Shown: in pieces, positions 2,769 through 49,315 of the stretch
Layout: each line of letters starts with the position of its first letter
Position numbering within the stretch: position 1 is the stretch's first letter
Virus record (IMG/VR): IMGVR_UViG_3300021197_001150
Location: 1 to 55,723 of that record
Strand: one strand, 5' to 3'
Length of the DNA: 55,723 nucleotides
Source: a virus
Notes under the pieces: model-generated
Seen by the model: the letters and a program-made list of their open reading frames with translations, nothing else
Told to the model about the DNA's origin: nothing
Database searches by the model: none
Program-made: the position numbers and the translations under genes

Positions 2769-3599
2769 ATGACGCAGTTAATATCCCCAAATAAATTTAC
2801 GAACACAGTTGGCCTTTTAAGGTCATTTTTTTTGGACAAAGGATTCTTAGAAGTCCATACCCAAAACAGACTAAGCATACTTGCCGCATGTGAAGATCCA
2901 TTCAATGTAGCAACATACCAATACGCAGGCAACACTTGGCCATTGCCGCAAACAGGCCAGATGTGGTTAGAACATGAATTATTAAGTAGCCCCGATAGTA
3001 AGGGGTTTTTTTGTGTCTCCACTTCCTATAGACAAGAGCCTAATGCAATACCAGGCAGACATGATATAATATTTCCAATGTTTGAATTTGAGATGCCAGG
3101 TAGCATTGATGATCTTAAAGCAATGGAGTATGAACTATGTGAATACTTAGGCTTTGGTAACATTACAGAAAAGACTTATAGAGACTGGCAAGAGCATTAC
3201 GGACTTGACTGGATCAAAGAGATGGACGCTGAACATGAATTAAAGATGGCGGCAGACTTTGGTCAAACAATGATTACAGACTTTCCAGAGATGACATCAC
3301 CGTTTTGGAATATGAGTAGAAACGATGGCGGCGGCACAAGTAAAAAGATTGACGTTATCTTAGGTGGTATGGAAACTATTGGGTCAGCAGAGCGTTCATG
3401 TGACGTTGACATGATGCGTAATACATTCCACACAATTACAGATGGTGCTTATAGTGAACTACTGTTTAAACTGTTTGGCAAAGAACGTGTAGTAGCAGAA
3501 CTTGAAAAGTTTTTAGAGTTTGACTTCTTTCAAAGAGTAGGCGGTGGTATAGGTATTACACGTATGATCCCGGCATTAGAAAAGATCAATAAGATATAA
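2769..3599 (+). CDS. Class II aminoacyl-tRNA synthetase-like core (AsnRS/AsnA-like)
   Basis: 276-aa protein with only the catalytic core of the Asp/Asn/Lys class II synthetases or asparagine synthetase A; no anticodon-binding OB domain. Motif 1 resembles LLRSFFLDKGFLEV near the N-terminus (the usual Pro after it is not evident). Motif 2 is SYRQE...RHDIIFPMFEFE (about residues 92-115). Motif 3 is GGGIGITRM near residue 262, closest to the GGGIG-x-x-R of AsnA. It could charge a tRNA, make asparagine, or modify another target. The ATG follows AGAAGGAAAAG; an upstream TTG in frame lies inside the terminator T-run. It ends six bases before an Asn-anticodon tRNA, suggesting a linked function. The coding sequence contains T-runs and a terminator-like hairpin at 2988-3012. 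Confidence 0.8.
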   Translation: MTQLISPNKFTNTVGLLRSFFLDKGFLEVHTQNRLSILAACEDPFNVATYQYAGNTWPLPQTGQMWLEHELLSSPDSKGFFCVSTSYRQEPNAIPGRHDIIFPMFEFEMPGSIDDLKAMEYELCEYLGFGNITEKTYRDWQEHYGLDWIKEMDAEHELKMAADFGQTMITDFPEMTSPFWNMSRNDGGGTSKKIDVILGGMETIGSAERSCDVDMMRNTFHTITDGAYSELLFKLFGKERVVAELEKFLEFDFFQRVGGGIGITRMIPALEKINKI

Positions 3600-3605
3600 A
3601 ACTAA

Positions 3606-3690
3606 TCTGGGGTGGTGAAATCGGTAAACACGCACGATTGTTTCTCGTGTGACGAAAGTCTTGGAGGTTCGAGTCCTTCCCCCAGAGCCA
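3606..3690 (+). tRNA. Asn-anticodon (GTT) tRNA with long variable arm, CCA encoded
   Basis: Folds cleanly: acceptor TCTGGGG/CCCCAGA (3606-3612, 3680-3686), discriminator G3687 plus CCA; D-stem GTG/CAC; anticodon stem CACGA/TCGTG with loop TTGTTTC, anticodon GTT at 3640-3642; T-arm GGAGG/CCTTC with loop TTCGAGT. Between anticodon and T arms is a 13-base variable arm containing GAC-GAAA-GTC, as in class II tRNAs (Leu, Ser, Tyr), and the D-arm resembles tRNA-Leu. U1-A72, G73 and the GUU anticodon are instead those of tRNA-Asn. U at position 37 is abnormal, because ANN-reading tRNAs carry modified A37. Confidence 0.85.
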
Positions 3691-3772: not shown

Positions 3773-4837
3773 ATGCCACCACGTAATCATAAGAGTTGGT
3801 TAGCACAACCAAACGTAGAATCAATCAGCAGTTCAGCATATAACGATCCAGAAGTATTTGCACAAGAGCAAGAACGTATCTTTTCAAAGGTATGGGTACC
3901 TATGTGTCACAAATCGGAAATGCCTGAGCCAGGTAATTTTAGAACAACACAAATTGCAGGAGTTAATGTTATTGCAGTCAATAACGGTGACTCAATTAAG
4001 TCTTATTTGAATACAGGTAAGTTTAATACACCTTCAGGAACAATGACACGAGTAGAGTTTTTAATGGACGACTATACTCCGTTACCTACAGAAGTAAAAC
4101 ACGGAGGTATGGTATGGACAACACTTGATCCTAATCCTACGCAGAGTGTAGAAGAATGGACAGCAGGAGCATTTGATTGTATTGCAGATGCTATTGACAC
4201 AGAAGAAATGGAAGTGTTCCATTACCACAAAGCAATCATAGATACAAACTACAAACTATGGCATGATACTAACAGTGAATTCTATCATGACTTCATGCAC
4301 TACTTTAATCGTGTAAGTGGATTCAACGATGAATACTTTGCACGTAAGAATATACCTTTTGACAACGGTCATGTAAACGTAAGCAGTTTCACAGTAAACT
4401 ATGAGGAGTATGACGGCTTCGAAGATAGAGGTGAACTGTCCTTTCCTAATCTACCACCCAACCAATGGTATATGGTAGACTTGTTTCCCGGATTTAATTT
4501 TAATCTACGTGGAAGTGCATATCGTTCAGACTCAGTAACTCCATTAGGTCCTAACCGTGTACTGATTGAGTTTAGGGGATACGGACTAAAAAAAGATACT
4601 AAAGAAGAACGTTTGACACGAATCAAACATCACAACAGTATATGGGGACCATTTGGTCGCAACCTCCATGAGGATCTAATTGGAGTTGCTGGGCAAGGAA
4701 CAACTATGCGTGAAGGTACAGAGAACAGACGTGTACTGCATGGTAGACATGAGAACGGTACTATACATGATGAAGTTGGTATGCGCCATTACTATACCGA
4801 ATGGGGTAAGTATTTGGATATTAATCCTTATCAATAA
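3773..4837 (+). CDS. Rieske-type oxygenase alpha-subunit relative lacking the Rieske cluster site
   Basis: 354-aa protein laid out like ring-hydroxylating oxygenase large subunits. Residues 40-80 look like the start of the Rieske domain (W-x-P-M-C-H, then GNFRTTQIAGVNVIAVNNG), but the CxH and CxxH loops that bind [2Fe-2S] are absent: the sequence goes from SYLN at 77-80 to a GGMVWTTLDP-like end of the domain at 111-120, much shorter than normal. The mononuclear iron domain is recognisable: NYKLWHDTNSEFYHDFMH (159-176) supplies His172 and His176, and Asp301 in HEDLIGVAGQG fits the third ligand. It may be an iron enzyme with another electron source, or a binding protein. ATG follows TAAGGAGAAACC. 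Confidence 0.8.
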   Translation: MPPRNHKSWLAQPNVESISSSAYNDPEVFAQEQERIFSKVWVPMCHKSEMPEPGNFRTTQIAGVNVIAVNNGDSIKSYLNTGKFNTPSGTMTRVEFLMDDYTPLPTEVKHGGMVWTTLDPNPTQSVEEWTAGAFDCIADAIDTEEMEVFHYHKAIIDTNYKLWHDTNSEFYHDFMHYFNRVSGFNDEYFARKNIPFDNGHVNVSSFTVNYEEYDGFEDRGELSFPNLPPNQWYMVDLFPGFNFNLRGSAYRSDSVTPLGPNRVLIEFRGYGLKKDTKEERLTRIKHHNSIWGPFGRNLHEDLIGVAGQGTTMREGTENRRVLHGRHENGTIHDEVGMRHYYTEWGKYLDINPYQ

Positions 4838-47978: not shown

Positions 47979-48794
47979 ATGGATTATTATGAAGTTTTAG
48001 GCGTTCCAAGAAACGCATCCGAAAAAGATTTAAAGTCAGCATACAAGAAATTGAGTATGCAACACCACCCTGACAGGACTGGTGGTGACGATTCACGATT
48101 CAAACAAATCAATGAAGCATATAGTACTTTAAAAGATCCACAAAAAAGACAGCAATACGATAATCCTCAACCACAATATTCACAAGGATTTGGTCCAGGT
48201 GGCTTTGAAGGAATGGGAGGGTTTGAAGATTTATTTACACAAGCATTTGGACAAGGCTTTCAACAGCAACAACGTAGACCGCAACGTAATTCAAATGTAA
48301 CTATAGCATGTGATATTACATTAGCAGAAGTATACTCAGGTAAAGGTGTAATTGCTACATTTAGAACAAGAAGTGGTAAAGAACAAACTGTTAACATTGA
48401 TATTCCTAAAGGATCAAGACACGGCGACATTATTAACTATAACGGCTTAGGTGATGATAGTATACAACAGTTACCAAAAGGTGACCTCCATGTAAAAGTT
48501 CGTATATTGCGTCATCCAAACTTTGATGTAAACGGATTTGACCTGCACACACAAACAGAAATTGGAGTATTTGATTTGATATTAGGTACTGCCACAAATT
48601 TAAGTTTGCCCAACGGACGTACTATAAGTATTAATGTTCCACAAGGCACACAACCAGGCACTACATTAAGCATACACGGACAAGGTCTCCCAAACTATAA
48701 TACAGGTCAAGCAGGAAACGTATATCTAAATATAAGAGGTATAGTTCCTAAGAACTTAACAGACGAACAAAAAGATATATTAAGGAAGTTATGA
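47979..48794 (+). CDS. DnaJ/CbpA-like co-chaperone
   Basis: 271-aa type II J-protein. The J domain (1-62) has HPD at 30-32, a Gly/Phe-rich linker follows (about 63-95, FGPGGFEGMGGFEDLF), and the C-terminal substrate-binding beta domains (100-271) lack the cysteine zinc finger of DnaJ. It would stimulate host DnaK on phage or host proteins. The stop overlaps the peptide deformylase start. Confidence 0.92.
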   Translation: MDYYEVLGVPRNASEKDLKSAYKKLSMQHHPDRTGGDDSRFKQINEAYSTLKDPQKRQQYDNPQPQYSQGFGPGGFEGMGGFEDLFTQAFGQGFQQQQRRPQRNSNVTIACDITLAEVYSGKGVIATFRTRSGKEQTVNIDIPKGSRHGDIINYNGLGDDSIQQLPKGDLHVKVRILRHPNFDVNGFDLHTQTEIGVFDLILGTATNLSLPNGRTISINVPQGTQPGTTLSIHGQGLPNYNTGQAGNVYLNIRGIVPKNLTDEQKDILRKL

Positions 48795-49315
48795 AATTAA
48801 AATTAGTATTACACCCAAATGAATGGTTAGAGAAACAAGTTAAGCCTTTTGATTTTAATAGTCTTGATGCCAAAGATGTTGAGAAACAAATGATTGATAT
48901 TATGGATAAGAATGCAGGAGTTGGTCTAAGTGCTAACCAAGTTGGTCTTGATGGACAAGTTTTTATTTTAAAGCCACACGAAATGGAAGGCTTTGATGAA
49001 CCGTTTGCACTATTCAATCCCGAAGTTGTTAAAATAGATGATAGGGTTATTGAAGGTGAAGAAGGCTGTTTAAGTTATCCAGGTTTATACTTTAAAGTTA
49101 AACGTGCAACTGCTTTGGTTGCCAAGTATCTTGACTCTAACGGCAAAGAGTGTACAATAGAGTTTGTAGGTTATAATGCAAGGATCTTTCAACATGAATA
49201 TGATCATTTACAAGGCATAAACTTTACAGATAGAGTAAGTAAACTTAGATTAGATATGGCTAAGAAGAAACAACAAAAATTATTTAAAAAATATAAGGTG
49301 GATGTTAAATGGTAG
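48791..49315 (+). CDS. def: Peptide deformylase
   Basis: 174-aa metallo-enzyme removing N-formyl groups from nascent proteins. Motif 1 is GVGLSANQVG (43-52, Ser where Ala is usual), motif 2 EGCLSYP with Cys93, motif 3 QHEYDHLQG with His135, Glu136 and His139. Marine phage deformylases typically lack the long C-terminal helix; this one keeps a short basic tail. Coupled to both neighbours by overlaps. Confidence 0.95.
   Translation: MKLKLVLHPNEWLEKQVKPFDFNSLDAKDVEKQMIDIMDKNAGVGLSANQVGLDGQVFILKPHEMEGFDEPFALFNPEVVKIDDRVIEGEEGCLSYPGLYFKVKRATALVAKYLDSNGKECTIEFVGYNARIFQHEYDHLQGINFTDRVSKLRLDMAKKKQQKLFKKYKVDVKW

Follow-up and report, generated by a model that had tools for sequence, protein, structure and literature searches.

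A conserved phage gene pair of an AsnRS-fold enzyme and a class II tRNA-Asn, with a proposed role in pyrimidine synthesis

A stand-alone class II enzyme with the catalytic fold of AsnRS and a tRNA of asparagine identity form a real and widely conserved pair in marine phages. The surroundings of the cellular relatives of this enzyme point to pyrimidine synthesis, and we propose that an AsnRS-derived enzyme feeds this pathway, while the phage tRNA would act as a carrier of Asn and not as a decoder. Belief and doubt are evenly balanced for this combined reading; the pyrimidine link taken alone is held with greater confidence. Charging tRNA is probably not the main business of the enzyme. A shallow literature search, with little reach into subscription journals, brought up neither a description of the pair nor a link between the enzyme and pyrimidines.

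The window, i.e., the whole stretch of DNA that was analyzed, comprises positions 1–55,723 of the 55,723-nt IMG/VR virus record IMGVR_UViG_3300021197_001150, a record with T4-like parts (a baseplate wedge match and a clamp-loader-like ATPase). The features under study are as follows:

2769–3599 (stop codon included), + strand: class II AsnRS-fold catalytic core of 276 aa, without anticodon-binding domain, phrog_29758
3606–3690, + strand: tRNA of Asn identity (GUU, U1-A72, G73, CCA encoded) with a class II (Leu-like) body and an extra arm
3638–3644, + strand: anticodon loop UUGUUUC, with U33, G34-U35-U36 (3640–3642) and U37 (3643)
3650–3662, + strand: variable region of 13 nt, with the hairpin GAC-GAAA-GTC

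Other features of the window include a peroxiredoxin-like gene at 2–607, a peptide deformylase (PF01327) at 48791–49315, and a glutamine riboswitch (RF01739, 56 bits) at 2113–2165, which lies upstream of a 53-aa ORF (2442–2603) with no Pfam or PHROG match; riboswitch and ORF stand between a NifU-like gene (1729–2106) and the tRNA/enzyme region. Starting 82 nt past the tRNA, a 354-aa gene (3773–4837) encodes a ring-hydroxylating oxygenase alpha-subunit domain (PF00848) and has no PHROG match at E 0.01.

Translation of 2769–3599 and a Pfam search bore out the claim of an earlier note on this DNA that the gene encodes a 276-aa class II core lacking an anticodon domain. The sole Pfam match at E 0.01 was tRNA-synt_2 (PF00152; 57.3 bits, residues 14–275); an OB-fold N-terminal anticodon-binding domain was not found at this threshold, and the fold alignment covered the catalytic part only. 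The motif 2 and motif 3 arginines are present, with R88, E90, and R265 invariant. We take the kept residues R88, E90, D195, E202, and R265 to match the adenylation set, and E42, T62, Q64, E68, and R209 to match the amino-acid pocket; the spacing of D195, E202, and R209 is presumably that of the AspRS residues. In PHROG, the protein was assigned to phrog_29758, "unknown function" (426 bits). The same note had called the enzyme "AsnRS/AsnA-like", which is true of the fold and not of the curated models. The AlphaFold model (mean pLDDT 92, pTM 0.90) had AsnRS as its top PDB match (2xti; Z 26.9, 2.6 Å, 21% identity over 251 residues), followed by AspRS, GenX (Z 23.5), and archaeal asparagine synthetase A (3rex; Z 23.5, 241 residues aligned). 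The protein nevertheless fell short of the curated cut-off in each of the six NCBIfam models that it touched, including AsnRS (NF003037; 29.8 bits vs. a cut-off of 414), AspRS, and asparagine synthetase A (NF005055; 13.8 bits vs. 389); curated models place it in none of these three groups.

In the printed alignments, the enzyme reads QTGQMWLE where AsnRS has QLYLE and AspRS has QLYKQ. Judged from these residues, the motif is of the AsnRS type, with Leu-Glu, and not of the AspRS type, with Lys; it speaks for a substrate that is Asn or an Asn-like carboxamide, and it also suits plain activation of Asn. A synthesis of free Asn from Asp and ammonia, as by an archaeal AsnRS-like asparagine synthetase, with the Asn then being used by the tRNA, would agree with the stand-alone class II core and with the fold match to asparagine synthetase A. 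We consider it very unlikely, however, given the low score against the asparagine synthetase A model, the AsnRS-type Leu-Glu in the motif, and an Asn_synthase-domain match over the cut-off already in 22 of the 30 carrier genomes described below (11 of 14 controls); it would also leave unexplained why ATCase is absent from carriers. Compared with AsnRS (class IIb), the enzyme shares the catalytic fold, the motif 2 and 3 arginines, and the Leu-Glu that follows its QTGQ motif; unlike AsnRS, it has no anticodon-binding domain, it possesses loops of its own ("SILAACEDP" and "EPNPIPGRH"), and its cellular relatives are found beside pyr genes. Archaeal asparagine synthetase A and EpmA/GenX are likewise stand-alone class II cores used outside tRNA charging, as is HisZ, a metabolic synthetase paralogue. 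The present enzyme differs from asparagine synthetase A and EpmA/GenX in standing outside the curated models, in its pyrimidine context, and in being linked to a tRNA in phages.

Each of three queries of the viral contigs gave at least 599 candidate stretches, of which the best 80 were kept per scan; the jumbo-phage query of the viral contigs returned two stretches. Together with database phages, the scan loci made up a phage set of 247 loci with the gene, representing 188 non-identical gene sequences. Within this set (best 80 per scan), 173 of the 181 testable non-identical gene sequences are followed by a class II tRNA, eight are not, and seven are cut by contig ends, the start of the tRNA being visible in three of the latter. 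The tRNA lies 4–172 nt downstream of the gene (12 nt or less in 166 of 173; exactly 6 nt past the stop codon in the window), and every one of the 173 has GUU, U1-A72, and G73. No tRNA was found near the gene in the ordinary phage copies L053, L058, L080, and L197 or in the jumbo-type copies L086–L089, with which a model search agreed; the L080 row was a false tRNA call and was excluded from the tRNA counts. The 187-kb phage record of L059 likewise yielded no class II tRNA-Asn. The most shared other ORF family near the gene was present in only 23 of 187 phage loci, indicating that there is no fixed phage operon.

The earlier note had proposed other marine phages as the place to look for the same gene pair, and it was found there, including in the Prochlorococcus phages P-SSM2, P-SSM5, and P-SSM7. 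In the accessible parts of Sullivan et al. (2010; PMC3037559), P-SSM2 is given a single tRNA, and the enzyme gene corresponds to the cyanophage T4-GC 194 "tRNA ligase", for which sizes are given in two of 16 cyanophages. In the P-SSM2 record (L083, AY939844.2), the tRNA-Asn is annotated about 2 kb off from its sequence position directly behind the "tRNA ligase" gene, and its coordinates look shifted between record versions.

The sequence and ARAGORN, which called a tRNA-Asn(gtt) at 3606–3690, confirmed the reading of a tRNA six bases past the stop codon with GUU, G73, U1-A72, a 13-nt variable region, and U37. The Rfam tRNA model scored 49.5 bits over the same interval, and RNA folding produced a cloverleaf with a fourth arm, at an energy z-score of only −1.0, which is usual for a single tRNA. 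By energy folding alone, the cloverleaf was obtained for the window and P-SSM7 tRNAs and not for the long-arm tRNA of L026. The linked tRNAs do not have a class I body with a short variable loop, as their variable region measures 13–37 nt and its stem covaries. Among 36 distinct sequences, 99.8% of 828 pair cells were standard pairs, as against 42–60% paired in slid controls, and both sides vary in 20 of 23 pairs, the three of the variable arm among them; a T-stem bulge was seen in five linked tRNAs. A normal Leu or Ser tRNA with another anticodon, the alternative that the earlier note had set against its own reading, was ruled out, since GUU lies in the loop of the parsed cloverleaf in 173 of 173 cases and the stems covary. 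Names such as Glu (ctc), Asp (atc), Gly (acc), and Stop (tta) that ARAGORN gave to long-arm relatives were dismissed as artefacts of the long arms: the program called gtt for 90 of 90 linked tRNAs with arms of up to 17 nt and for eight of 83 with longer arms, missing 43 and misnaming 32 of those 83 (L002, L004, L019, L026, L029, and others). GCAA is present in 69 of the 71 variable arms of at least 28 nt.

With U33 and U37, the tRNA of the window lacks the combination of U33 and a purine at 37 that we used as the criterion for an elongator. This combination was found in 14 of 113 distinct linked tRNAs vs. 84 of 84 other distinct tRNAs from the same phage loci (ARAGORN controls; Fisher 2.4e-41, the related sequences not being independent). 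Position 37 is a pyrimidine in 99 of the 113 (U in 95, C in four), and position 33 is C or G in 12. The U37 pointed out in the earlier note follows the rule among linked tRNAs, 153 of 173 having a pyrimidine there and 20 having U33 with A37. Among the 90 linked tRNAs with arms of up to 17 nt, all named gtt by ARAGORN, 88 have a pyrimidine at 37; ARAGORN therefore detects both kinds of loop, and the contrast with the controls is not a detection artefact. By this criterion, the loop of the linked tRNA is mostly not of the decoding type. The anticodon GUU is nevertheless constant, even though no anticodon domain is present in the enzyme; what maintains GUU is thus probably not this enzyme but, most simply, the host's AsnRS or an AspRS of the non-discriminating type. 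GUU, G73, and U1-A72 are the elements that AsnRS or AspRS/GatCAB of the host need, and the U1-A72 pair fits GatCAB.

The enzyme and the tRNA might also be two independent cargoes, the former supplying a pyrimidine precursor and the latter being a host-charged tRNA for translation that its altered loop and body protect from the anticodon nucleases of the host. Anticodon-loop mutations of phage tRNAs have been proposed, in the accessible part of the source, to evade host tRNases (PMC10264068), and class II tRNA-Asn does occur apart from the enzyme: the Brevundimonas phages Kikimora (L085) and Kabachok (L387) share GUU, U1-A72, and G73 on a class II body with the linked tRNAs, and no PF00152 protein was found in Kikimora, which was searched whole. 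Unlike the linked tRNAs, however, the two Brevundimonas tRNAs read have standard U33/A37 loops and are placed in tRNA clusters; the other tRNAs of the phage loci studied here all keep U33 and a purine at 37; and no other neighbor family comes near the conservation of the pair, which independent cargoes would leave unexplained. We regard this explanation as unlikely.

The cellular set consisted of the best 80 of 125 relatives from a genome scan, with members in CPR, Bacteroidota, Pseudomonadota, Dependentiae, DPANN, Myxococcota, and others. In the enzyme tree, whose root is unusable because the branch to AsnRS amounts to 8 changes per column, the genome contigs L255–L260 and L268 group within the phage clade or at its base; their removal left a set of 73 cellular loci. 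L326 (in-frame TGA; code 25 was used for the tree) was left out of alignment A2, and L068 (cut short) out of A5. A 46%-identical relative in the giant virus Pithovirus LCPAC304 (BFVD A0A481Z9R2) extends the family to that virus group.

A covariance model found no class II tRNA-Asn in the fetched flanks of 76 of the 80 cellular-contig loci (best 80 of 125), and the four that had one (L255, L256, L257, and L268; 84–91 bits) are phage-like contigs. Another 12 weaker matches (24–62 bits) lie at or near tRNAs that ARAGORN names Leu, Gln, Lys, or Gly. Class II tRNA-Asn was also not among the 30 matches read from seven whole cellular genomes, two jumbo phages, and the 187-kb phage record, all of which had Leu, Tyr, Ser, or Arg anticodons or were ordinary 74-nt tRNA-Asn. 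Behind the gene of L258, a Pacearchaeota MAG contig, the tRNA (3866–3885) is reduced to two acceptor halves joined almost directly, either by deletion or by assembly collapse.

When 28 phage proteins (the jumbo-type L086, L087, and L089 being left out) were aligned with 73 cell proteins, 78 positions were at least 95% conserved in both alike. Seven positions (1, 2, 9, 119, 140, 169, and 219) are phage-specific, none of them among the conserved catalytic residues; the chemistry is therefore probably shared between phage and cell. The mean net charge is −18.6 for phage copies vs. −9.9 for cell copies, and this lower charge does not favor a gain of tRNA binding by the former.

These data bear on the private aminoacylation module that the earlier note had envisaged. 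In one form of it, the phage enzyme would charge its own tRNA with Asn via the acceptor stem and the long variable arm and so provide a host-independent supply of Asn-tRNA. The presence of the tRNA behind 173 of 181 testable gene sequences, the invariant GUU, U1-A72, and G73, the AsnRS-type QTGQMWLE motif, and the covarying stem of the variable arm all agree with such a module, and the pair itself is real in phages. The data do not support a general role of the module, however: the tRNA is missing in 76 of the 80 cellular-contig loci, where the relatives are tied to pyrimidine genes; the seven phage-specific positions are outside the conserved catalytic ones; an enzyme without an anticodon domain gives no reason for keeping GUU; the loop is mostly of a non-decoding type; and phage copies without the tRNA exist. 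The earlier note had held that relatives consistently occurring without the tRNA would defeat the module idea; this is the situation in cells and not in phages. A private pair thus appears rather unlikely to us, and of the three options that the note offered, a non-translational aminoacyl donor best fits the anticodon-loop data. An orthogonal Asn supply is conceivable, and nothing observed speaks for a recoding of AAY codons.

The reading that we prefer, an enzyme feeding pyrimidine synthesis, draws on the neighbors of the cellular genes. Homologues of PyrE, PyrF, or dihydroorotate dehydrogenase occur in the short flanks of 24 of the 73 cellular loci, which belong to several phyla. The gene order is enzyme-pyrF-pyrE-pyrD-prs in Candidatus Bandiella (prs being named from sequence) and pyrD/enzyme/pyrF/pyrE in Pasteurella atlantica; in Aureispira and Chitinophagales, a pyrE-F fusion and pyrD are near the enzyme gene. 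In the Patescibacteria loci L262, L276, L277, L281, L290, and L307, the gene stands between tRNA-dihydrouridine synthase-like and DNA polymerase III subunit-like genes, likewise named from sequence, with a tRNA-Gln further on.

Pathway genes were counted in 30 of the 80 carrier genomes, one of them being the bin of the phage-like contig L268, and in 14 control genomes. PyrF was over the cut-off in 24 of the 30 carriers vs. 14 of 14 controls, six carriers lacking PyrF too. ATCase was over the cut-off in three of 30 carriers (one being the L268 bin) vs. 14 of 14 controls, the large chain of carbamoyl-phosphate synthetase (CarB) in five of 30 vs. 14 of 14, and pyrC_multi in one of 30 vs. 11 of 14. 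Among the 24 PyrF-positive carriers, 21 have no ATCase and 18 have neither ATCase nor the synthetase large chain; the carrier genomes are mostly MAGs with completeness not given, and many carriers are, we assume, episymbionts, parasites, or predators that may scavenge. Pasteurella atlantica, a complete chromosome by its record title, has PyrF and none of ATCase, the synthetase large chain, and pyrC_multi over the cut-off. Several carriers showed sub-threshold dihydroorotase matches of up to 264 bits against a cut-off of 279; given these and the three carriers with ATCase, the exact step replaced is unsure.

In the family of G007 (Saprospiraceae; 150 genomes), the enzyme was found in four genomes (E up to 1e-40), and ATCase was over the cut-off in none of these four vs. 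131 of the 146 others (Fisher p = 1.9e-4, the four including close relatives); no ATCase match of any level was found in the four carriers. With ATCase missing in carriers and kept in most of their kin, the gene acts as if it took over the opening steps of the pathway. A general role as the carriers' only AsnRS was ruled out, as a full AsnRS was over the cut-off in 12 of 30 carriers (7 of 14 controls); all 30 match the AsnRS model at some level, as AspRS does. Cellular relatives that lie in a pyr context and seem to replace the first genes of the pathway suggest that an asparagine-handling enzyme has a use apparently not described before.

Pyrimidine genes were also encountered near some phage copies. 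The six Prochlorococcus phage records with the enzyme are the same six named cyanophage records that have a matching pyrE (P-SSM2, P-SSM5, and P-SSM7). Among named cyanophages, the matching orotate phosphoribosyltransferase (51–58% identity) was confined to these phages, the background being 467 Synechococcus, Cyanophage, and Prochlorococcus records with a portal protein; in effect, this co-occurrence represents about two independent phages. Matches to the orotate phosphoribosyltransferase query were likewise obtained in six marine single-cell virus records. In L142, pyrE (TIGR00336, 142.8 bits) lies 288 nt upstream of the enzyme gene, and a DHO_dh-like gene was over the Pfam cut-off in L177, L180, and L256 and just below it in L268. 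In 17 of 184 phage loci, there is a compact phosphoribosyltransferase with a homologue in the Pasteurella atlantica and Bandiella operons. The three examples scanned stayed below the Pfam cut-off, but the model of this protein retrieved orotate phosphoribosyltransferases at Foldseek ranks 1–19 (best E 6e-6). No pyr homologue was found in the short flanks of 165 of the 184 phage loci, nor in the window, and the 19 pyr-positive loci include L029, whose weak "PyrEF" match resembles adenine phosphoribosyltransferase. The 595-kb uncultured phage LR756511.1 has a PyrE-like gene (35%) and a dihydroorotate-dehydrogenase-like gene (33%) at 211987–212514 and 248256–248942. An alternative pyrimidine pathway has been suggested, in the accessible part of the source, for a picocyanobacterial cluster of asnB, pyrB2, and pydC (PMC10119275), a gene set different from the pyr context of the enzyme.

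Carbamoyl phosphate and aspartate are commonly regarded as the starting materials of de novo pyrimidine synthesis. In cells, the enzyme would stand in for ATCase and, in most carriers, also for carbamoyl-phosphate synthetase and dihydroorotase, and its product would be dihydroorotate or a direct precursor that enters the PyrD, PyrE, and PyrF steps. When neither carbamoyl phosphate nor ATCase is at hand, the simplest route to dihydroorotate is from Asn and CO2. We infer that the enzyme would bind Asn, that ATP would activate the carboxyl made from Asn and CO2, and that the side-chain amide nitrogen of the activated N-carboxy-Asn would close the ring to yield dihydroorotate with loss of AMP. A chemical precedent is TsaC, which makes threonylcarbamoyl-AMP from Thr, bicarbonate, and ATP. 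Where ATCase exists, the enzyme may instead carry out an ATP-driven cyclisation of carbamoyl-aspartate.

In marine T4-like phages, the enzyme would serve as an auxiliary pyrimidine gene outside the feedback control of the host. Their linked tRNA keeps the charging identity (GUU, G73, U1-A72) but mostly lacks a decoding-type loop. An enzyme drawing on Asn beside a tRNA of Asn identity that is poorly built for decoding suggests that the tRNA stores or hands over Asn; most likely it serves this reaction and does not read codons. This is the weakest step of the proposal. In a tRNA-linked form of the pathway start, the enzyme would take Asn from Asn-tRNA and convert it with CO2 and ATP to dihydroorotate, one protein replacing CarAB, PyrB, and PyrC; in phages, Asn would come from a dedicated non-decoding tRNA that the host charges, and in cells from ordinary tRNA-Asn or free Asn. 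We judge this form distinctly unlikely.

The enzyme apparently occupies the same place in the pathway as CarAB-PyrB-PyrC, upstream of PyrD, PyrE, and PyrF. It differs from them in being one protein of an unrelated fold instead of several, and in that it would start from Asn, whereas they use carbamoyl phosphate and Asp. In PylRS/tRNA-Pyl, a synthetase gene adjoins a tRNA with an unusual body, and the phage pair is similar in having a synthetase-fold gene beside such a tRNA; unlike the PylRS system, it has the sense anticodon GUU, a mostly non-decoding loop, and stand-alone relatives in cells.

If the proposal is true, the enzyme would represent a second entry point to de novo pyrimidine synthesis, in a family that reaches across CPR, Bacteroidota, Pseudomonadota, DPANN archaea, phages, and a giant virus. 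It would account for steps that seem to be missing in host-associated and small-genome microbes, and marine phages would commonly carry it as an auxiliary pyrimidine gene. The linked tRNA would then clearly exemplify a phage tRNA retained for a non-decoding use.
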